A stretch of 64,000 bases of DNA, taken from positions 372,001-436,000 of the forward strand of contig NBIV01000017.1 in NCBI GenBank assembly GCA_003194525.1, in the 5' to 3' direction. Shown here in pieces: positions 1 through 62,409 of the stretch. Below the pieces are notes generated by a model, which was not told the origin of the DNA, ran no database searches, and saw only the letters and a program-made list of their open reading frames with translations. Source of the DNA: Gracilariopsis chorda (Eukaryota; Rhodophyta; Florideophyceae; Gracilariales; Gracilariaceae). Both the position numbers and the translations under genes were made by a program. Each line of letters starts with the position of its first letter. Positions within the stretch are counted from its first letter, which is position 1.

Positions 1-141
1 ATAAACACTCTTGGTTTTTTGTATTATTTCACGTTCACTTATCAATATTAAAAGGCTATTGAAGTAAAAATAAGGTAAACATTAACACAACTGTATAGTA
101 CTTAAGCATACACTACGGTGTATTACTTGACCTAGTTCATC

Positions 142-1917
142 ATGCCGCCCCTTAACGGAAATTTTACTAGCAACGTAAGATATGCAAATCAGCAACAACG
201 ACAATATCTCGAATTCATTAAGAACATTCATGAAAATAATACCGCAGCAGAGCCTGTTCAAATAATTGAACTTCTGAGAACTGAACACCCCCCACACAAG
301 CTATTTACGTGTACAATTTTAAGTAATGGGCTGCTTATGCGCAAGTTTGCAAAGTTTTTTGAAGATCGCAGATTTGGTTTTGCAGAACATGTAAGCGGTA
401 ATCTCTTGAAAACAATTGCCAAAACTCTTTTTGAGGAGTCTAATCTAGAAAATGCTTTCACTGCTATAGATTTACTCGAATAGAAGCCGGCGCCTGCCCG
501 AACTGCACGAAAACAAGCCCTGAGATATGCTGAAGGTGAAGAAGACACCGAGGATGGGCACCAACGGGAGCTCTCACCTCCAAAAGATGTCATTGAACAA
601 CATCACCAAAGCCAGGCGTGGCGTCCTCAAAACCTCAACATTAAGCCACAGAATAACTTCGGAGACAACAGAGATACGCTAGCGTATTACATTTCGCTTC
701 GCTTCAAACATGACTCTTCGAAGTTTTCCGAAGCTCTTGGTGAGTGCTGGGATGAGTTTCTAAGCAAGTACAAATACGTTCCCTTAGATTCCAAGCTATC
801 CAACCATCAGAAACTTCAGTATTTACACCATCTTTTGCGTGGAAATGCAAAACGGTTTTATGTAAGACATATTGATGGCAGAGTGCGAAGCTTTAGAGAA
901 GCTTCAGCAATCATGGAAAAGGAGTACAATTCGCTCTCTCGTCAGAATCGCATTGCTGCCTACGTTCGTAATTTACGAATTCAGAAATTTGTGTCAGACA
1001 GTTCCTCATTAAGTACCGCTTTGGAGAAAATTCAAGGAGAACTTTCGAAACTTGCCCCGCAAGGCCCCATGCACAGCCGCTCCGAACGCAGTCGCATTGA
1101 GTACTTACAGAACGCTTTAATTGGCCGTTCTTGGGCGCGAGATGCATGCAGCAGAGCCAATGCGGGACCGATTAGCTATCACTAAGTCTATGAACAGTTG
1201 GAAGCCGCAATTCAACTGGATCAGGAGGAGAAAACTGGTCGTATGCGAGATCAAAAGAGTCTGCACTTAGAATCAATCTTCACAAGTGATTTCCAAAACT
1301 CCGACACGATTGAAACCTTTTCTGCTGGCCAGTTTCGATACGCACGCCATCAGCGTTCCTCATACCGGACAAACTTTCGTCAATCCAATAGCAGACGGAA
1401 CGTTCAATGTTGGAATTGTGGTAAATTCGGACATGTTATTGCCGAATGCAGGCAACGCGAGGACCTCACCAACAATGCCGCCAACCTTGTGCAATATTTG
1501 CAACGTAATGGATGCAAGGATGAGAACAAGGCTTTGAAACACGTCCTGTGTGAAATCTGCCAACTTCTCGAAGAGTCCAGTGATTGCGATGATTTCAAAA
1601 GCGCGGAAACATTCTCTGCTTCCAACGGCGAGGCAGATATTAATGCAGACAACGAAAACTCTGATCTTTCCAAACAATGTTTTGCGTCGCATTTTGGAAC
1701 GCAAAGTACCGACCTCTTCCTCTCGAACTGTCTTCAGCATTTTGAACTGGGGATACTAATGAATTCTGGCGTAGTGCTCCTCCCAAGCCGCAGAACAAGA
1801 AAGGACCAGACAATTCCTTCACTGGGTCACCTCGAATCATTCGTCTTTGTACACGAAAGCAAGTACGTTAGAGTTCTCAAACAACTCGTTGGAACCTTAT
1901 TGACATTCACAATGTGA
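142..1917 (+). pseudogene. copia gag region with zinc knuckle (fossil)
   Basis: Gag-like coding remnants run through this stretch. The clearest mark is a CCHC zinc knuckle (CWNCGKFGHVIAEC) encoded near 1408-1450, the nucleic-acid-binding motif of retrotransposon Gag proteins. Broken; described only as part of the copia fossil. Confidence 0.7.
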
Positions 1918-2359
1918 AGACAAGTTCATTCGACAGAAAACGACGCGAATTTCAGGGTGCATGTCCGGAATCTGGCGCACAACAATCTGTACTAGAAAAA
2001 AGACAGGCCCAAGCGTATTATAAACTTGTAAGCATTTTATTAAAGCTGAGGCACTCCAACAAAGCCTCTACAATTGGAGATGGCGTTTTATTCAGCCAAG
2101 GAACTATGCAAGTACGCATTCCGTGACCTGGTAACACTTTCCTTGTACTAGAGATTGACGTATTGACGTTGTTGACGCCTCTGTACCTCTCCTTATTGGT
2201 CTAGAAACTTTGGACCTACACGCTCTTGTAACTTATAACGCGGACAACATGCTAGTCAACAAGAAGCTCAACTGGTCGATACCAATCACGAGGAAATTCG
2301 GTCATATGTACTTAGAATGAGATTAATCTGAGATTCTTTAGACCAAGAGCGAACTCCAA

Positions 2360-3280
2360 AAAATGCATATGCATTTCTACCATCCTAGCGCAAACAAGTT
2401 TTTCAACAACTTTATCTCCCAAGCAAAGCCAGAAAATGCCACGGCTGAGACCAGGAAACTCATTGAGCGTATCTCATATTCATGTGCCATGTGCCAGCGT
2501 TTAACACCCCGGCCATAGTCCTTCCAAGTCTCCATTCCAGGCAAAATACTATTCAACAGTGAAATTACTTTGGATCTTATGTTCTTGGATAAAATGCCAG
2601 TTGTACACGTTGTCGACACAGAAACGCACTTCAGCTCTGCAGTTTTCCTCAAGAGTCAGATCACTGAAGCAATCTGGTACGCATTTCTCGGTTGTTGGGC
2701 AACATTATACACCGGCTATCCAGACAAGATGAGACTGGGTAAAGGCAGATAATTCACATCCGCTGGATGGAAAAACCTGACAAGCATGGCTGGAATCACC
2801 TTACAAATTTCAGGCGTTGAAATTCATAATTCCCTTCGAAATGGTGAACGGTACCATGAACCCTTACGTCGTATGTACCAAAAGATTCGATACAGCGAGC
2901 CCAATGTCCCCATCGCCTTAGCCCTCCGACTTGCTGTCAAGGCTATGAACGATACAATGAACCCCGAAGGACTTGTACCTTCGCCACTCGTATTTGGAGT
3001 TCTTCCCTGCTTCCCGCCTTTTAACACAGAACTTCCAAACCATGACCAGCGAATGAGAGCTCTTCAAATTGCGCGCACTGAGATGGAAACCATCACTTCG
3101 GAACTTAGTTTGCGCCATGCAATCGTCACTCGCATTCCATCTGCCGCATCGACAAGCTTGAAAGTTGGACAAGAAGTTCTAGCTTATCGAGAAGATTTGA
3201 AGCCAATAAAATGGACTGGACCCTATAAAATTGTAAGAATTGATAAGAAAACAAGTCTTTACCAATCGCAATGGTGAAAC
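2360..3280 (+). pseudogene. copia integrase region (fossil)
   Basis: Remnants of the pre-integrase zinc segment (HP...C..CQ pattern near 2375-2500) are followed by an integrase core with VVDTETHFSSAVFL near 2600 and a C-terminal segment near 2800-3280. These are hallmarks of copia-group integrases. Broken. Confidence 0.75.
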
Positions 3281-3559
3281 ACTCCAAAATTCTATTGCGC
3301 AGGTCAACCCTTTTCATCGTGGCGAACTAATGGACAACCTTTATACTTGTCTCCAAACAATACTTTCTAGTGATTTCGAACTCTATGATGTTCAAATCAC
3401 TGAAGTGTTAGGTCTTTCCGATCACCGTCGGAACCTACCAGCATTCAGTGAAGCCAAACTAAAAGAGCTGGCAGGATTAGTATCCTGCGGAACGTGGAAA
3501 GTCAGTAGGCAAGTTGAACTGTCAGAAGACGCCAATATCCTCACTGGCCGCTTTGGGCT

Positions 3560-4714
3560 ATGGTGCAACGCCCCAAAGGGGAGAAACACCAAAAGACGTT
3601 CGGGATCTTTCCTCCGTGGAGGTGAACCCAGTTGGGTAGAGCTCTCCCAGAGGTGTCACGGCGAAGCCGGTTTGTAAGACCAGGGACACCGGTCGCGACT
3701 TGCGCAGGGAGGTGAAGGCGAAGAATCGGTATCCGCGTGAGCGGAGTGTGATCCTCAGTAGAGGTATGTTTCCACGTAAGTGGGGGTGTGTGGACGGATT
3801 CACACACGAGGGCCGCGGATAGCGGGAGCTGCTACCCTAAAAAGGGGAAAAAGGAAGGGCGAAGAGGAGGAAGAGAGGACGATGTGAGTGTGGTGCAATG
3901 CCCCAAAGGGGAAAAACACCGAAAGAAGTTCGGGATCTTCCTCTCACGAGGTGAACCCAGTTGGGTAGAGCCCTCCCAGAGGTGTCACGGCGAAGCCGGT
4001 TTGTAAGACCAGGGACACCGGTCGCGACTCGCGCAGGGAGGTGAAGGCGTAGAATCGGTATCCACGTGAGCGGGGTGTGATCCTCAGTAGAGGTATGTTT
4101 CCACGTAAGTGGGGGTGTGTGAGCGGATGCGCACACGAGGGCCGCGGATAGCGGGAGGTGCTACGCTAAAAAGGGGAAAAATGAAGGGCGAAGAGGAGGA
4201 AGAGAGGGCGAAGTGAGTCGCGAGAGCGACGGGGGCGAACGGTGATGCCGGTAACAATATCCCTATACAGGGCGAAACACCAATGCAATTGGAATAATAT
4301 GACTCCCAGTGATGGGTCCCTTTAGATCTGCAAGGGGGTTAGATGTCCCGTGGTTCACGGCGTTTCCCTCCAAGGAGGAGTAGAGTACGCGCGCAAGCGG
4401 CAACAACTAGAGCCAATTCCCCAGGTTGGGGTCCCTTGTTGGGGAAGGTTTACTGGTGCGACGGCAGTTCGCCGTCGCACTAAGTACTAGCTTCCCAGAA
4501 ATGGGTGTGAAAATAATAAATAATATCAACTAAAATACTCCACATTTCGTGGCAACATCCACTACTGTGGCCAACCGCCAATTGACCCAAAACCGTGTCC
4601 CACGTGTCCATATCCACCATTGTGGGGCGTAGTTCATATACACACTACACAACCGATAATATCGGGAAAGCATTCAAGTACCAAGAATCCCTCCCTGAGG
4701 GCGTTGCACTTCAT
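3560..4714 (+). mobile_element. hairpin-chain inverted-repeat element, copy A (1155 bp)
   Basis: An insertion in the copia fossil. It is flanked by a perfect 5-bp direct repeat GGGCT (3555-3559 and 4715-4719), and copia coding sequence lies on both sides. Its ends are inverted repeats: ATGGTGCAACGCCC at the left and, read inward, ATGAAGTGCAACGCCC at the right. No protein is encoded. Most of its length folds into consecutive short hairpins: CCCC-AAA-GGGG (3571-3581), CCTC-CGTG-GAGG (3611-3622), CGGC-GAA-GCCG (3659-3669), CCGTG-GTT-CACGG (4348-4360), and a 10-bp stem GTGCGACGGC/GCCGTCGCAC near 4455-4480. Many loops are of GNRA type (GTGA, GTAA, GCAA, GAAA). It contains a 330-bp tandem duplication that the second copy lacks. 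By structure it is a non-autonomous inverted-repeat element; I cannot assign a superfamily. Confidence 0.72.
3562..4222 (+). repeat. two tandem 330-bp units inside hairpin element A
   Basis: The unit starting GGTGCAACGCCCCAAAGGGG at 3562 recurs at 3892 with about 90% identity by eye. Subtracting one unit from copy A leaves 825 bp, close to the 811 bp of copy B, so the duplication arose after the two copies separated. Between units the stem CCTC/GAGG is kept while its loop changes from CGTG to TCAC. Confidence 0.85.
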
Positions 4715-4719
4715 GGGCT

Positions 4720-6064
4720 CGCCATCAAAAATCATGAAACTGATGAAGAGATATTCAAAGCCAGATTTGTCGCCCAATGGCATAAAGATCCAGAAAAAGC
4801 TTTTCTAGTGCACAATTCACCTAATCTAAGACAATATTCAACCCGAATTCTCGTTACCATCGCCGCTATTCTTGGATATAGAGTATGGAACACAGATGTT
4901 CGTCAAGCATACTTGCAAACCGCACAGAAGTTCATGCATAAGGTATACCTGAAGCCTCCGTAAGAACGGGAACTTCCAGCACACATGTTTTTGGAACTTC
5001 TCCGCCCTCTTTATGGACGTTTAGACTCTGGGGACTATTGGTACAGAACAATAACAACTCATCTGAAAGAAGACCTAGTAATGACCCCGAAAAACGGAGA
5101 TCTGTCACTGTTTATGAAACTAGAACAGGCAAAGCTCATTGGCTTAACCGGTGTTTACGTAGATGACCTCTTTCAATGCTGAACCGATGAATTCCTGCAA
5201 CAGGCAAAGCTCACCGATCAAAAGTTTGAATCAAAGGACTTAGAAATGGATTCCGCTTTATTCGCGGGCGTCAGAGTACGCAAAACCTATAACGGATTTG
5301 TCCTAAGTCAGGAACATTATGCCAAACGATTGCGAATTTATCCAAAAGATTGCACCTTCTCTGAGTTTCGTTCATTGAGACATAAACTTGCTTGGTTGGC
5401 CCGCACGCGACCATATATTTGCTGTGCTCTGAAAAAGGGTGCTCAAGGTACGGAAAAATCTTTTTCAATAGAAAATGTGAAAAACATCAACAAAGTCAAA
5501 ATGTAAGTTTGAAATATGTCAAAGTTGATGTCAATTTACTTCATGTCAAGGTATATTCTCAGTCCTCATTTGCCAACAATGCAGGAAACTCATCTCAGAT
5601 CAGATTCATCATTCTTCTCGTAGATAAGTTCGATAACTGCAATATTCTTCATTTCTTAAGTCACAAAATCCAGCGCTTTACCAGATCAGTTTTAGGACGA
5701 TATTTATACGGATTTGCAGATGCATTTGATATAGCTTGTGTTATCAAACATGACTTAGAGTCAATAATTGGAAAGAAATTTCCAATCACAATGCGCACTG
5801 ACTCAAAACGTTCATTAGACGTAATAACAAAAAGCTCATCGACATCTGAAATGCGACTAATGATCGACATTTAAGCAGTTTGTGAAGCCTACTCAGATTA
5901 CGAAATTCCTGATGGTAAGTATATCACCTCCAACAGCAACCATGCCAATCGTTTGTTTTTCTAAAGTTGAGAGCTGTGATGCTTTGATTCAAATTTTAAT
6001 TACTTCAAAATTCGTTTTAGATATTGATAAATTAGATGTACGTGATTTTGTGCGAGAATTGTAA
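4720..6064 (+). pseudogene. copia reverse transcriptase and RNase H region (fossil)
   Basis: Copia-type RT remnants: KARFVAQ near 4765, the TDVRQAYLQ block near 4900, and a YVDD catalytic box near 5157. RNase H-like remnants follow to about 6064. This is the RT signature of the Ty1/copia group. Broken. Confidence 0.85.
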
Positions 6065-6140
6065 GCTATACAAAAAGAAAAGGGATTGTCAGGATCAATT
6101 TTCTTTTAACATCCTTTTTAGATGGTGAGGAAGAAGAAGA

Positions 6141-6460
6141 TGTATTTAACCATCTCAGTATGGTTGGGGATGGTGAGAAAGCGTCTCGGCTTCTCACCAT
6201 CCTCGAGGGTGGTGCCATGGCTGCTTACAATGCCGCGTTTTGTGCGAGCATGTTAGGACTCTCATTACTAAGAAAGACGAGTAGCGTCTTTCGCTCTGAG
6301 TATAAAAAGAGAAGATAGAGCTCGGACTTCGCCTCTCGTCTGTTCCCCAACCCGTTTTATCATCATCAACTATACTTCCCCAAGCAAAGAAACCTTCTGT
6401 TTTGGGCCCTCTTTAGCTACCACTACAGGCCGCCCCTTTTTTTTTAAACGTATTATTTCA
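6141..6460 (+). repeat. 3' LTR of the copia fossil
   Basis: It starts TGTATTTAACC directly after a purine tract (GAGGAAGAAGAAGA, 6127-6140) that fits a polypurine tract, and ends in CA at 6459-6460 at the sequence shared with the 5' LTR tail (1-31). It holds a perfect 12-bp stem (6168-6179 with 6191-6202), a 7-bp stem AAAGACG/CGTCTTT (6273-6291) and a TATAAAAAG box near 6300. The ACCATCC strand of the first stem could instead pair with GGGTGGT just downstream, giving two mutually exclusive folds. Confidence 0.75.
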
Positions 6461-6762
6461 CGAGATAACCCTTCGTAACTGTGTATAGGTTAGGATTGCT
6501 AACCGTGTATCATTGCAACTGGACAAGAACGGGTCGATAACCGGCCGGACGTCCTCTTCGTGCAAAGGCGCCGTATCTTACTGCACTTGTGCACACGTGC
6601 GCACCGCTCGCATCGGTTGGCGACGCGCCACCTAGAGATGACCGTCGTCTCCTCCGCTACAGAAGGGGCCCGACATGACCGCAGCAGTGTCCTCCCCTCA
6701 GCGCCCCCTTCACAATCATCCGCGCGCACCATGAAACCCCCTCTTCAACACCTGTACCCACG
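6461..6762. other. upstream region of the PP2C gene
   Basis: A 302-bp stretch between the copia LTR and the phosphatase start codon. Open frames exist here but carry no recognisable domain. It presumably holds the promoter and leader of the PP2C gene. The LTR with its TATAAAAAG lies only about 460 bp upstream on the same strand, so an LTR-derived promoter for the gene is conceivable. Confidence 0.4.
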
Positions 6763-52359: not shown

Positions 52360-53190
52360 ACCATTACCAAACCGTGTTTCTACATTAAAGCGTTATTTAA
52401 TTCTTGCAGTCTAGATTGTGCCGAAATGTCTTACCGCAGGAGTTCTATCTACAAAACTGCTCCATTCCCTAATAATTACTAAGGAAATGAACTGAATTAC
52501 TAACTGTTTTCCTATAAATCGTTTAAAGTAACTTTTCGCCATAACAAATGAGCGAAAATACGCTTAAAGTCATTATCTTGCTATAAACAAATGATACTAA
52601 AATTTGTACAAATCTCTTATTCATGAAAATCTTGCCATGTTCTTACTTCTACGGTTTGAATAATGAAAGCGCGGAAAAGAAGATGTTCAGTAAGTGTCGT
52701 GAAACAGTTTGTCAAAGTGCATGCGTAGACATGGCAGTGTAATGGCAAAAGAACTAAATTTGTACAATTAAGATGTCATGAAAAGAACAAAGCGTCACTC
52801 TTTGCGTCTTTTACTGTTCAAGAGAATAAGGATGTTTAAATTGTGAGTAATTATATGGCAATAATTAGTGTTATAGCCTTTTCACACAGATCCCTTTCGT
52901 CGGCCGGTTGGGCATTCGCAAACGCATCGCGCGTTGCAGAGAAGAAGGCAAAAGGTTGGGCATCAAGTAAAGTCCCAACCTAGTGGTGGATGTCCGCAGA
53001 CCTCCATCGGGGAGTCATGTATTCCTTATTAAGTAGTTTTCTGCCTGCCACATACGGGTCGTCGGTGGCAGGCATTCTGAATTTCTGTTAGAATGTGCCG
53101 GATTTGCATGTGCCAAACTCTGCATTCGCGTAACTGGCTTGATCGTCATTCGCGAAGCTACCGCTGGTCGCGATCATCTTGCACTCAAGG
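52360..53190. other. AT-rich gap with one 10-bp-stem hairpin
   Basis: No gene seen. At 53042-53074 there is a perfect 10-bp stem TGCCTGCCAC/GTGGCAGGCA with a 13-nt loop. Confidence 0.6.
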
Positions 53191-53255
53191 TGTTGCAAGA
53201 GAGTATTCTTGCTAGGTCTGTTATGGCAGCCGTTTTTGTGGTTGCAAGTGTAGAG

Positions 53256-54499
53256 CAATGCGTGCGGGCATACCCTTTAGGCGATGTGGATCATTAATGA
53301 TTCAATTCCGATGTGGCATCGGTTCAACTAAGGTATGAGTGGGCCCTCGGAAATATTGGGTCAAATTCGATAGGAATTTTAATTGGTATTTTTGAAACCT
53401 TCATAGGTGATTTCTGTGGTACCTGGAACAGATGGACGCGTGGCAAGCGTACGGATATTATTCATGGCTGGCATGATTAAAACGTGCCACTTTGTGCCGT
53501 GGCCGGCAGGGCTGCCAAGTGACACCTGTGTGTGGACCACAAGTATGGCACACTACAGTTGTTATGTGGTAGTCCGACATCTGACTGATGTTCACTGTCG
53601 TTGGTGCAGTGGGAGGACGCTCGGTGTAACAACCAAACATACGGCACAAGTCTGCCGGGAGCTTCTGGTTGCTCCGAGAGATTTGACGCGGTTTAAGTAG
53701 AGATACTGCGCGACCATTCGGTTACCAGAGAGACTATCGTTGTACGTATGTATACGTACATGTTTGCTAACTTCGTATCAAGTTGTACGTGTTCCTCACC
53801 TCGCCGTGAGCTTCCGGTACGTCACCCAATCCACAAAAGTAGTAGTATTCTTAGTTTACTGTGACCCATTAGTACTTAAGGGAGGACGGCCTTACTTTTT
53901 CAACCCGAACTAAGAATAAGTTGTGACTCGGCTCTGCGTTTATTGCCTGCGCGAAGTGACCAACTACTGCTGGGGTTTCACCGCGTTGAGTCTCGTTATA
54001 CTCACCCGCACAGCATCAGAAAGGACCGCTGATATGTCTGCTTCCATGGGTACACCCAATGTTCACTCTTTTTTACCGTCTTGGTTGCTGTTAATTGTGG
54101 GAACAGATAGCTATTCGATTCAGTATTGATTTTTGTCATTCTGACTGAAAAGCAACACCTTCCAACGCCGGATCTCTTTCAGCGTTCCACACGACCCGAC
54201 GCGTTGTACTTTATATTTCTGTCTCTCCCCTTTTTCTCTTTTCCCTTTCTGAATTCTCCATTGACTGGGACACCGCTCACAGGTACCTGTGCACTACGTT
54301 GAACAGCTGGTAACCCAATGTTTGGTATGAACTTCATTGGTATAGCCAGAAACCATCTCGGTTTTTCACCCGAACTCCGTGTGGTATGGATGTCCCTGTT
54401 GCTGCGCTTACCACACAGGAGAGCAAGGCTGCGAACACATTGGGAGGATTTCCCGCCCAGGGATATTGCTTGACAGCAAAGAAGTGTTTTTGCTGGATA
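53256..54499. mobile_element. 1244-bp insert in the 5' LTR of gypsy fossil 2
   Basis: Flanked by the 7-mer TGTAGAG (53249-53255 and 54500-54506), with LTR sequence on both outer sides. It has no inverted ends and no recognisable protein; the longest frame is 53407-53700 (+). Compared with the 3' LTR, about 60-80 nt of LTR near the junction are also missing, so the insertion came with a small deletion or the copies had already diverged. Type unknown. Confidence 0.5.
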
Positions 54500-58166: not shown

Positions 58167-58388
58167 TGACTGCAAGAGAGTATTCTTGGTACGTATTTCA
58201 TGGCAGCCGTTTGTGTGCTTGCAAGAAAGCATTCTTTCTTGATGTGTCATGGTAATCGTTCATAATGCTCTGCATTTTCACAATTGTTCATTCTCGAAGA
58301 GTTCATGATCAATCACGCACTCTTTCATCTCACTAATATTTATTCCTCTCTCTCTTTGGTATCATAGTAAAGAAAGAGAAAGCATCCA
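58167..58388 (+). repeat. 3' LTR of gypsy fossil 2
   Basis: Starts TGACTGCAAGAGAG and ends in CA. It matches 53191-53255 (TGCAAGAGAGTATTCTTG; ATGGCAGCCGTTT) and 54500-54589. It contains an 8-bp hairpin CAAGAAAG-CATT-CTTTCTTG (58222-58241). Confidence 0.75.
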
Positions 58389-58399
58389 ATGTAATGGTC

Positions 58400-60690
58400 A
58401 CGCCGAACGGTTTAGCCAGGCTTACCCGGCTACTCTTTGTTCCTAAGTAGCTGACAAACCAAAAAGTGTGACTTCAATACCGATTTATTAACATTTGCAT
58501 ACAATACGCAAATTCACCACACTACCGAAGAATCACCGTTCTTAATGGTTCTATCTCGTTTACCTTTGCCTGTTAAGTTGCAAGCTCAAGCTATTTTGGA
58601 TACTTTCCCATCTATGGGTCGCTACCGCCAAAAATGGAAGCAATGTTTCACTAAGCTAGTTCCCATAGCGCAGAAGTCAATATAACGTGCACAAGCCGCA
58701 AAGAAGCGGGATGCTCACGTTCGTGTACGAGATGATGTTCTTCCAATACCGTCTAGTATCTATGTCTTCATACGGAAGGAATAGTATAAGCTTCGACCTA
58801 GAAAACGCCACAAGCTCTCACTTGTGGTAGATGGATCATTTATAGTGATATCCATTAACTCCGACTCTGTCGTGGTGGAAGTGGGCAAGACGCAAGTACA
58901 GATTTCCGGCAATGGTGTTGTGTTTTATCCCCCTTCCTGGTCTGCAGTCGTCCTGGATACCAAGGGACACGTTTCTACGGACTCAGTGATGTCGGAAACG
59001 TTCGGAGTAAATAGATTGACTATTCTATCTCACAATACCAGTGGCCTCTCAGATTTACCAGTTCTGTCGGAATTCCCGGCTTAGGCGGACCTTTCAGGTC
59101 GTAATGGAACTTTACCTACTCCTACCTCGAACGCTTCTTTTGCGGGCATTTACACTTGCCATGTAAAGTATCCTACTGCTACTATTTATGCTCCGTCTAA
59201 GGAAAGAGAGAGGTTCTGTCGCTCTGATGGAAATCTATCGCCATCCTAACGGGATTCACACTGTGAGACACGAGAAAGTACTATTGAAACTCCGTGTCAG
59301 CTGAATGTCTCCACAAAGGTGGCATCACAATGGATTTCTGAACGTGAAACACAGAATGTCGACGAAATATCGCAATGCCCTACACAGGATTTTGGAACGA
59401 CGCTAAAACAGAGAAAATCAAAACGTATGGTACGAGACAGTGAACCCACATCGTGGTCCAGACCCCTGCATCATTTCAATTCCTTGAATCAGGAAGGGAG
59501 CGGTACCGTTTGGCAAACCTCCCACCAGGGTGTAGTTGTAGAACCGTCGCCAACAGCGTTTCAATAACGGTTTCCCCAACCCCATCCACACCGCTGGTAG
59601 CGGGTCACGTACGCGCTGGAACACCAGCAATACTACGCAATGAACAAACCCTCTCGAGGGAAAAACGCAGTAACGGATCTCTCGCCCCACGGGCCCTGGC
59701 TCTACAGTGCCGGAAATGCCCAGCGCTCAAAAGGGGAGTGTGGCCACATCTTTGGGGATCAATTTGATCACGTCTCCGTGCAATCGCGGTGATAAACCGA
59801 GCGTCTTGGAAACCTCTGTAGTCGTCGCCAGAGTTAAACCGGTCGTCCCAGATTTTACACCTCTCGAAAAAGACCTCACACCTCATTTAGAAGCAAAGTC
59901 CCCAGAAAGGGTGTCCACAGTGCCCGGTGTAAACGCCCCACCAAGTAGCTTTACGCAACATTCCGGAGTCCCAGAAGGAACCACTGGACACCAGGTGCCG
60001 GCTCAGCAACACACCGTGCCGCCGGATAGTGTAAGGCCTTTACCGAAGGAGGCGGATCGCACGGAGGCACTTCAGAATCAGGTAGGGTGGGTGTCATGTG
60101 CACACATGGAGGAGACGCACCATGGGCCAACCACCAGGCAACGTGGAACGCCATACCAGGAAATGATCTTGGGACGCTCGCCAAAACAGCAAGATGCCTG
60201 CAAGCTTGCGTTTCAACCAGAGTACCGTCAACATGGGAGGGAAGGCCCCCGCATACTAGGGATACGAAAATATTACTGAGAAAGCGGAAACAATCTTTCC
60301 TGAACCAAAAAGGCAATACGTCAACCGTTCTATGAGAACACCCTCTTGAAGGATATTATTTGGCACTCCACGCCCCCTTCCATAGAGGCTGGCACAGATC
60401 CGTTGCATCCCGAGACCCCTTTGAGGAACTTTATTCCGTACCACGGGTAACACTTGTTAGGGGAGTTCACAACAACACGGCGAGGGCAGCAATTATACAA
60501 ACAGGAGTTTATCATTGACCGATTTGTCGGGCACACCTGGAACAAGGAAGGTATTCTAAGATACCGTGTCCGTTGGTACGGATATGCCGCGAACTAGGAT
60601 ACCATGGAACCGATCGAACACCTCCCCTGTTGGAAGGTGGTCCAATATAACAGCAGCGCGGGAAACGCAACTCTAGCTACGCTGGGCAAA
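58400..60690 (+). mobile_element. third Ty3/gypsy remnant, chromodomain end
   Basis: Mostly unrecognisable protein-like frames (58824-59084, 59319-59567, 59707-60279). The end at about 60504-60660 encodes FIIDRFVGHTWNKEGILRYR and VRWYGYA...TMEPIEHL, a chromodomain of the kind that ends chromovirus integrases. No LTR pair found. Very broken. Dense short hairpins lie near 59585-59680, for example CCGCT-GGT-AGCGG. Confidence 0.5.
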
Positions 60691-61598
60691 GCGGAAGTGA
60701 GATAAAAATGCCACGAAATCGGGGATGATAGGAAACAGGAGTTCCTCTTGGGAAGGACTCCTTCAAGGACAAGATTAAACGAAAGACAGCCGTTCTAAAC
60801 GTGAAAGTTTATTCAAGATCCTCACCCTTCTGTAAACATGCTCCACTACGTTACTGGCTCGGCCAGGGAAAGAGACCAGAATACTCGACTACATGTTCCA
60901 CTCCTCCCCATCTTTCTGGACGTGAACAACTGCAAGGCGGGAAGCCAATGCATCCGCCATCGCAGTGACGTCCCGCGAGACTTTGGCAGCGCACAAACCC
61001 GCTCCACGGACACAGCGGGCAATGAAATGACCTTCTTTGGCCGTACCCCCGCTGGGAAGTGAAGCTTGGCGCTCACAGTTGGAGGACTGGGGCCCAGAGG
61101 TGCACCCTTGGGGGAATCATGTATGATCATATCGGCAGCAACTGGATGGAACCACGGCGCAAGCCAGACCGGGAGGCATGACTCCGATACATTGTATTTA
61201 CTCTTCAAGGCCGCTATACGAAGGCCAAGTCGTTGCAGAGGTCGGTCCGGTAGGAAACAACGCTGATCGAAGTTGAAATGCATTGTACTGCAGTTCGACG
61301 CCTTTGCAGCAGAGGCATTGACCGGAAACCAGTTGTGAAGTTCCCGACCGGAGTCGGTTCCGGAGGTTAAGTGTTGTTCTTGTTCATACTTCCCTTTGAC
61401 AGGGTGGGATCTGAGTGAGTTGTGTTGGAGGGTCAACAGCTTGCACTTGTGGGACGATGATGTGCTGCGTTTGCAGGAGGTTGTTTCTCTAAAACAGAAG
61501 TTTTAACCAGTGACTAAGAGAGGCGTGGACTTCTAGCAACAATTTTTCGCTGGTATTCGCAGGCTTCCGCGGTTTCTTTGCAGACTTAGGAGGGGGAT
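60691..61598. other. no recognised gene
   Basis: Contains long frames on both strands (60846-61436 minus, 61066-61266 plus) that conflict with each other and show no domain. Probably mobile-element debris. Confidence 0.4.
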
Positions 61599-62409
61599 AT
61601 GAACTGTAATGCCTTCACGGAGGTATCTTTGGCACTTCGTTGATTTCCCGAACGTTTCGGTAATGCTATCATTGCGTGAACTACGCCCACTAATAATAAA
61701 TTGGACACCTGGAACACGGAAGAGTTAACTGGTGGCTGGCCACAGTAGTGAGCATGAACCACGAATGAGGAGTAATGTTATTTAGTTCTTTAGTTATTTT
61801 GCACCCATTTACACCCATTTCTGGGATAGTTACTAGTTAGTGCGCCTGCTAGTTGCCATCGCACCATTAGAACTTCCCCATTAATGGTCCCCCCGTATAG
61901 GGAATTGGATCTAGACCTCGCCGCCTTCGCATGCTCTCTACTCCTTCTTGGAGGGAATTATCGTAGCCTACGGAAAGTCTATCTCCCTTGGACGTCTAGA
62001 GGAGCCCAGACTTGGGAGAGTTATTCCAACTGCTTTGGTGTTCTCCTTTGTGTACGGTTTACCTACCGGTACTACCGTTTACCTACGTGACTACTCTCGT
62101 GACAGAATTCCCCCATTCCTTCTTCCCTCTACACTGTTACTTTTTTGCTGCCCATGGCCCGTGTTTGCATGTGCCAAATACTTGGAAACGTTTCCTCTCT
62201 CGAGGACAATGACACAAACACACTTCTTTTGCGGATACCCGATTATTGCCTCGTCCTCCCTTCGCCAGAGGCCACAGATGGCCTCGGCCTTACAACCCAA
62301 CATATTCGTACCACCTCTGGGATGGATTTACGCGAAAGGGGTAACCTCTAACGAGGAAAGATCCGAAACATCTTTCAATATTCTCCCGCTCAGGGGAATT
62401 ACACAACAT
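61599..62409 (-). mobile_element. hairpin-chain inverted-repeat element, copy B (811 bp)
   Basis: Inverted relative to copy A and alignable end to end with it by eye. Landmarks shared in order: GAGGAAAGATCC near 62353, a CTCC/GGAG stem near 61938-61952, CTACTGTGG-type and GGGCGTAG-type blocks, and an identical CCCAGAAATGGG hairpin near 61812-61823. Ends are inverted repeats: ATGAACTGTAATGCC and ATGTTGTGTAATTCC reading inward. No flanking duplication is visible (GGGAT on one side, TAATG on the other), so it is older or one flank is altered. It lacks the 330-bp duplication of copy A. Confidence 0.65.

Follow-up and report, generated by a model that had tools for sequence, protein, structure and literature searches.

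A solo LTR of a Ty3/Gypsy chromovirus in Gracilariopsis chorda and the array of perfect mini-hairpins carried by its clade

Introduction

What kind of element is a stretch of 1155 bp that has inverted ends and a short flanking duplication, seems to lack a gene and is filled with consecutive small hairpins, and in which molecule would these hairpins fold? The question is raised by a locus in a 64,000-nucleotide stretch of the genome of the red alga Gracilariopsis chorda (contig NBIV01000017.1, positions 372,001 to 436,000; hereafter, the window). The original prediction for this locus was a mobile, non-autonomous inverted-repeat transposon with a folded RNA body, inserted into a copia fossil. 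Here, we follow up this prediction by comparison with other copies of the element in the same genome, by hairpin counts against shuffled sequence, and by analysis of the variation and pairing of the hairpin stems.

Results

The window element is a solo LTR

A search of the genome (91.3 Mb, 1081 contigs) with the window element returned at least 44 matches, a lower bound on copy number with 40 of 1910 first-look candidates scored, in agreement with the predicted mobile, repeated nature of the element. Thirty-nine of the 44 are other copies that run from query position 321–330 (window ~3880–3889) to the end of the query or nearly so. In the set of 21 other copies of this family (family A) used for flank analysis, namely 20 copies plus one in locus L028, the unit measures 824–828 bp and typically reads TG[A/T]AGTGCAACGCC...GCATTGCACCACA in the element sense, which is the minus strand of the window. 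Fourteen of these copies adjoin an internal domain, 10 as 3′ LTRs and four as 5′ LTRs. A polypurine stretch ending in ggata precedes 10 copies (the PPT side), while AAGTGGTCTCCCGACC... or a near form follows four (the PBS side), so that a PBS lies after the 5′ LTR and a PPT before the 3′ LTR, as in Ty3/Gypsy elements. The PBS of family-A elements begins TGGTCTCCCGACCTAGAA..., and PBS-like sites with at most 3 mismatches number 1344 in the genome, against 0 for the reversed control. The other seven copies look like solo LTRs, six with exact 5-bp duplications and one with duplications matching at 4 of 5 bp. Both the further copies and the repeated 5-bp flanks that had been proposed as checks were therefore found.

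The same genome holds two full-length relatives of ~9.9 kb with RNase H, integrase, chromodomain, PBS and PPT. Their LTR pairs, on C3 and C13, lie ~9.1 kb apart start to start, are flanked by the duplications AGGGA and GTACA and are 98.3% and 99.6% identical within the pair, and their interiors encode RT_RNaseH, H2C2, an integrase core and a chromodomain on the strand opposite to the window's plus strand. In locus L023, RT_RNaseH, H2C2 and rve follow one another in the pol order, with the chromodomain in a different frame piece from the integrase core, and the chromodomain (PF00385) scored above its cut-off in two elements. The pieces scanned gave no match to the RT core domain, no Pfam family was matched for gag, and a scan of viral contigs with an RNase H–integrase piece found no relative. 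The PPT and PBS joins, the target duplications and the RNase H–integrase–chromodomain interiors of the full-length relatives identify the window feature as a solo LTR from a Ty3/Gypsy chromovirus, lying on the minus strand. The window copy itself has TGGGC on both sides and no internal domain, and copia RVT_2 pieces lie beyond it on the right (Table 1).

Table 1. Features of the window discussed in the text.
Feature	Position in window	Strand	Basis
Copia relic hosting the solo LTR, RVT_2 pieces at 4721–5179; no hairpin excess	1–3553 and 4719–6600		
5-bp target-site duplication, left copy (TGGGC)	3554–3558	.	Read from the sequence; phase set by the LTR ends in 21 other copies
Compound solo LTR, made up of a full LTR and part of a second copy	3559–4713	-	blastn against genome copies
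Partial LTR copy, 330 bp, element-sense positions ~496–825	3559–3888	-	93% identity (329 bp) to the corresponding segment of the full LTR
Full-length 825-bp family-A LTR; 26 perfect mini-hairpins over 40% of bases	3889–4713	-	~96–97% identical over its length to 20 copies
Longest perfect hairpin of the window LTR: 10-bp stem, 5-nt loop	4456–4480	.	Hairpin listing
5-bp target-site duplication, right copy (TGGGC)	4714–4718	.	As left copy
Element E (older relative from this clade), internal region, decayed	58386–61598	+	DNA identity, tblastx
3′ LTR of element E, PPT-like stretch (aggagggggata) ahead	61600–62408	+	Sequence comparison, hairpin counts

Phased with the 21 other copies, the element keeps its predicted length of 1155 bp and its ends shift from 3560–4714 to those in Table 1; the duplication is indeed 5 bp long, but reads TGGGC rather than GGGCT. 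The statement that it contains no ORF is loosely right, seven ORFs of 62–145 aa overlapping the stretch. The inverted ends are real and, with the 5-bp duplication, speak for the predicted non-autonomous transposon with terminal inverted repeats and an RNA body that folds. They are, however, the usual short inverted repeats of LTRs, and PBS and PPT link the copies to coding interiors, which leaves that reading next to no probability: with 14 of 21 copies adjoining an internal domain, the stand-alone transposon gives way to the LTR of a chromovirus. A MITE or other TIR transposon, with TIRs as its sole mobility signal and no link to an LTR element, was rejected as well, since the full-length elements refute it. 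A ribozyme or known RNA family was also rejected, as Rfam gave no match up to E 1 in 3300–5000 and none at gathering score across the window.

The window LTR is compound, and its 3559 end reads TA on the plus strand, where family copies have TG...CA ends (minus strand). This form probably arose by nesting of one LTR in another followed by LTR–LTR recombination: a second LTR copy would have landed in the first and then recombined with it, and recombination between LTRs would have left a solo LTR behind. Our segment comparison did not assign parts of the compound LTR to particular copies. In L017, a full LTR is also joined to an LTR tail (from position 344), the full LTR there being a 3′ LTR with a PPT ahead, and L028 contains a solo LTR within a diverged LTR (duplication TTTAC). 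The predicted copia fossil was recovered in the right flank of the window LTR, where two consecutive frame pieces match RVT_2 (profile 25–101 and 115–172; E 9.4e-7 and 1.8e-4), both below the curated cut-off, and tblastx of three copia loci of the same genome against window 1–6600 gave no match.

A mini-hairpin array runs through LTRs and coding interior

Hairpins were defined as perfect stems of at least 4 bp with loops of 3–6 nt, and were counted against dinucleotide shuffles. The window LTR is filled with short hairpins, as predicted, with 26 against 7.9 ± 2.5 in shuffles (z 7.4), or one per ~32 bases, and its stem total was reached by 0 of 300 shuffles. LTR families C, D, B and E hold 27, 24, 16 and 14 hairpins against 8.4, 7.3, 7.4 and 6.3, with representatives of different families being 52–79% identical. 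Across forty 800-bp LTR-side stretches upstream of PBS sites, a subset of the 1344 PBS-like sites, the excess was present in all 40 (z 2.4–10.9; 60 shuffles each). Among these 40 are groups F and G and L065, whose alignment to the families above extends over short pieces only, and LTR group H (L076, one copy), which showed no alignment to them. The array continues inside the element: along two interiors, all 62 overlapping 500-bp windows, a few of which include LTR sequence at the ends, reached z 2.9–9.6.

The hairpins have a characteristic shape, with stems of 4–5 bp and loops of 3–4 nt in 3- to 6-fold excess through the coding interior. Among 4-bp stems, enrichment falls mainly at loops of 2–5 nt and is highest at 3–4 nt; for loops of 3 and 4 nt, we counted 62 and 67 in LTRs (17.9 and 17.0 expected), 93 and 95 in the interior (27.2 and 24.8), and 123 and 120 in 39 kb of host DNA, where the spectrum is flat (124.0 and 126.4). 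A few other loop lengths reached z 2–3 (loop 7 in LTRs, 26 vs 16.6; loop 20 in LTRs, 27 vs 16.8; loop 1 inside, 49 vs 34.3). Five-bp stems with 3–4-nt loops numbered 111 vs 19.4 in one interior. While loop length is constrained, loop sequence is free. The outermost pair of 252 A-interior hairpins is C-G in 189 and G-C in 28, against 752 and 763 in shuffles, a bias that is weaker in G (14 C-G, 5 G-C and 11 T-A). Seven nt is the modal spacer length between hairpins in LTRs A, C and D, and 6–11 nt the commonest range inside; the centre-to-centre distances peak at 18–23 bp.

This centre spacing, near two helical turns, would suit a function in double-stranded DNA, with the hairpins as dyad-symmetric sites for protein binding, cruciforms, chromatin or self-targeting of insertion, and so would the strict Watson-Crick pairing and the several LTR-in-LTR nestings. 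We consider such a function improbable, however. Loopless stems show no enrichment and one-base loops next to none (25 vs 23.5 in LTRs, besides the interior count above), and private, mostly post-insertion variants show no stem protection (see below). Moreover, there is no single binding motif because the arms vary, and the LTR insertion points in the window and in L017, judged by eye in these two cases only, lie off hairpin centres.

Among the loci sampled, the array is restricted to one chromovirus clade

Control tiles of the window gave count z values of −1.6 to 1.4 in 13 of 14. Over the entire 64 kb, 255 windows of 500 bp averaged z 0.33 (sd 1.38), and ten exceeded 3, eight of these at the two LTRs. 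The excess was missing from three copia loci and from six further Ty3 loci of the genome, two of which have a near-identical RNase H (z −1.2 to 1.3), from two linker-gene loci (z −0.1 and −0.5) and from the copia relic on either side of the window LTR (z 1.0 and 0.6). The genome has seven places with the phycobilisome linker domain, each scoring above cut-off; among 14 control genomes, a cyanobacterium alone gave such matches, and in a nuclear genome of 91 Mb they point to a red alga. A host-wide mutational habit was rejected on the grounds that the host tiles and the copia and other Ty3 loci are without excess. Of seven loci where an interior was located by its coordinates next to an LTR, six, belonging to B, C, G, F and A, showed the excess (ratios 2.6–2.9, z 6.1–7.6). 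The 1.6 kb of L105 taken as H interior had none (z 0.1); tblastx did not match it to the A interior, and it may not belong to an H element. Identity to A or F across the RNase H domain is 74–97% for the clade pieces from C, F and G and 35–46% for the hairpin-free Ty3 loci. The array is thus restricted to this chromovirus clade among the loci sampled.

The window holds an older relative of the same clade, element E, whose interior has 68% DNA identity to the A interior in blocks 58386–59088 and 60469–60817 and tblastx matches up to 61598. Its hairpin excess is weaker (interior, 32 vs 23.0, z 2.4; 3′ LTR, 13 vs 4.9, z 4.5).

Several further observations concern tiles and tandem arrangements. One control tile, 53001–53825, held 13 hairpins vs 6.8 (z 2.7); by stem bp its z was 3.5 (0 of 100 shuffles), and that of two further control tiles was 1.9. 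Locus L037 (G000:C40:302200-312199) consists of a tandem 1184-bp unit, composed of a family-B LTR (~796 bp) and ~388 bp of other sequence, with eight units and part of a ninth within the stretch examined; the one unit tested kept the hairpin excess (23 vs 7.7). RNase H or RVT_2 matches recur at near-fixed spacing (~5.68, 6.35 and 2.68–2.79 kb) in G000:C573, C883, C1001, C819, C509, C225, C755 and C383, which suggests tandem arrays of LTR elements in small contigs.

Stems vary less than their surroundings in the replicating lineage

In three A ORFs we counted 85, 61 and 52 hairpins against 31.7, 22.4 and 17.6 in synonymous-codon shuffles, which preserve protein and codon usage, and two host genes gave z −0.1 and 0.4 under the same shuffles. 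An amino-acid side effect was rejected, since the excess survives this null.

Variation was followed in 49 family-A LTRs, using hairpins present in at least 3 of the 49 copies; variants shared by at least 3 copies were taken as lineage-level, and private variants, by inference, as mostly post-insertion. In family-A LTRs, shared variants are scarcer in stems than in either loops or spacers: shared-variant columns amount to 13 of 232 in stems, 16 of 100 in loops and 77 of 493 elsewhere (stems vs rest, p 4.4e-5), making shared variants ~3-fold rarer in stems. Private variants are not rarer there (0.61 per column in stems, 0.46 in loops and 0.57 in others). Seven single reference copies gave 0.033–0.056 shared variants in stems and 0.153–0.193 in loops. 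Nearly all gaps fall in spacers (gap cells per column, 0.008 in stems, 0.009 in loops and 0.205 between). In small pseudo-stem controls, only one of the seven reference copies separated real stems from pseudo-stems at p<0.05. Pseudo-stems present in at least 3 copies had 0.094 to 0.250 shared variants per column, but at thresholds of at least 10 and at least 25 copies some were as low as real stems (0.04); ascertainment may therefore explain part of the stem protection. Since private variants go without stem protection, the constraint would seem to operate on the lineage as it replicates, and the stems appear to be conserved by selection while the element copies itself.

In pol, 22 of 42 hairpin positions are common to A and C (null 3.9 ± 1.9), and third-position divergence between the two is 0.31 in stems, 0.63 in loops and 0.42 in spacers (p 0.005; fourfold sites, p 0.04). 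A and F have 17 positions in common and A and G 10 (null mean 3.9; the A–G null maximum is also 10), with no fewer changes in stems in either comparison. Stem protection in A–C but not in A–F or A–G indicates that the hairpins turn over, their positions changing between lineages. Among four LTR families, two-sided changes that stay Watson-Crick exceeded expectation in all 12 directed comparisons, which are mutually non-independent, by 0.8–1.9 sd; the excess of paired stem changes that had been proposed as a check is hence present, but weak. For whole-MFE-fold covariation, one-sided changes were at chance and two-sided changes mixed, mostly slightly positive (z −1.5 to 3.2). Column-shuffled alifold gave z ~ −10 on both strands and was not relied on, because its null destroys dinucleotides, and a simulated tree null (R-scape-like), at 1.5 changes per column, had low power.

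These data bear on a mutational origin of the array, in which the clade's reverse transcriptase would fold back and copy one arm from the other, so that short-loop palindromes accumulate without benefit. Such a drive would be expected to produce arms that vary in sequence but pair strictly by Watson-Crick rules, to give coding and non-coding parts one loop spectrum, and to yield an array confined to a single clade, as is seen among the sampled loci; it would also lead to stem protection at the level of the lineage and not after insertion, if the enzyme corrected stems in each cycle. Yet copying should turn many one-sided changes into pairs, and the compensated pairs in the 49 A LTRs comprise 0 shared variant types and two rare ones. 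Furthermore, hairpins are nearly fixed in family A (32 in at least 3 copies, 27 in at least 25), and the orientation bias of the outer pair (189 C-G vs 28 G-C) is not predicted by simple copying. We therefore regard mutational drive as an unlikely origin of the array.

Pairing and strand favour single-stranded DNA

RNA helices tolerate G-U, and DNA hairpins favour 3–4-nt loops. In the stems of this clade, interior G-U pairs are not enriched (LTRs, 9 vs 17.6, x0.51; inside, 48 vs 47.6, x1.01), and neither are interior A-C pairs (10 vs 15.1 and 52 vs 51.6), whereas all-Watson-Crick stems number 39 vs 11.3 in LTRs (x3.45) and 175 vs 35.3 inside (x4.96). One-sided changes between families are near the mutational expectation for both G-U (111 vs 117.0) and A-C (63 vs 74.5). 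Local folding of seven clade sequences, with pairing span limited to 24 nt, gave z −4.1 to −9.0 with DNA parameters and −1.9 to −6.5 with RNA parameters, DNA being more extreme in 14 of 14 strand tests; four folding controls lay at z −2.2 to 2.4. With the same span limit, four interior stretches reached RNA z values of −3.3 to −6.5 on both strands. The GNRA-type loops of the original prediction do make up 4 of 10 tetraloops on the plus strand of the window copy (GTAA, GAGA, GTGA and GAAA) and are enriched on that strand, but it is antisense to the element. In seven LTR representatives, GNRA loops number 14 vs 3.6 expected on the antisense strand and 2 vs 1.2 on the sense strand, and inside 12 vs 6.7 and 5 vs 5.3, in counts that include homologous hairpins, some more than once.

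The genomic RNA itself might form the hairpin chain, in the manner of the genome-scale ordered RNA structure of RNA viruses or of dispersed packaging signals. Hairpin positions common between families, together with some compensatory changes, are consistent with such a sense-RNA structure and are what stands of the predicted folded RNA body; a constrained loop length with free loop sequence, the 7-nt spacer mode of the LTRs and the CCHC zinc-knuckle pattern of one ORF, among four tested inside the element, point the same way. Stems should then accommodate G-U, which is neither enriched within them nor above mutational expectation between families, and the GNRA loops lie on the antisense strand, while RNA-parameter z values were the weaker ones in every strand test. 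As G-U is not favoured and DNA parameters are more extreme, folding of the coding-strand RNA is not the best reading, and we give it a low probability. Taken together, the pairing and strand data favour hairpins that would form in single-stranded cDNA, or a requirement for them on both strands.

Discussion

The element is of a known kind, a chromovirus solo LTR, and the genome-long mini-hairpin array is its unusual part. Like other Ty3/Gypsy chromoviruses, the lineage has TG...CA LTRs, a 5-bp duplication, a tRNA-type PBS, a PPT, RNase H, an H2C2 integrase and a C-terminal chromodomain; unlike them, it carries an array of perfect mini-hairpins through the LTR and the coding interior.

We lean towards the explanation that this lineage-wide array folds in a single-stranded replication intermediate of the chromovirus and aids its replication, a reading that we consider rather probable. 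The hairpins would fold in the single-stranded intermediate, most likely cDNA, or in both strands, and once folded would help the element to compact, package or protect the single strand, for instance by offering regularly spaced binding sites to Gag. Copies that lose stems would then replicate less well. In a bolder form of this explanation, which we put forward tentatively and hold to be possible, the whole element genome, protein genes included, would be selected as beads-on-a-string mini-hairpins in single-stranded cDNA, with synonymous codon choice serving the fold.

In the parts of the open literature covered by our search, including sections of PMC3601003, PMC6911290, PMC9784701 and PMC4918200, we found no description of such a mini-hairpin array. 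Genome-scale ordered RNA structure is described as a folding excess spread over coding sequence (PMC9784701). The present array is similar in its folding-energy excess along coding RNA, but differs in lacking RNA-type pairing with G-U, in its very short strict Watson-Crick stems with 3–4-nt loops, and in belonging to a retroelement rather than an RNA virus. Retrozymes are described as non-coding, with LTRs of 300–400 bp, hammerhead ribozymes, 4-bp duplications and Ty3-like PBS and PPT boxes (PMC4918200). They share with our elements a structured motif in the LTRs and the Ty3-like PBS and PPT, whereas here the LTRs measure 825 bp, the interior is coding, the duplication is 5 bp and Rfam revealed no hammerhead. 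In retroviral R regions and LTR-adjacent sequences, local stem-loops give paired conservation (PMC3601003); these, too, are local stem-loops in LTRs, but only a few are found there, unlike the array through the whole element in the present case.

A practical warning is that 'structured non-coding elements' of MITE-like appearance may turn out to be solo LTRs. If the favoured explanation is true, a retrotransposon clade has overlaid ~10 kb of its coding and regulatory sequence with a second code, a structural one, and it would provide a natural system in which many dead copies serve as neutral controls beside a replicating lineage. Such a system lets one ask what secondary structure does in reverse transcription or packaging, and on which of the two molecules, RNA or cDNA, selection acts.
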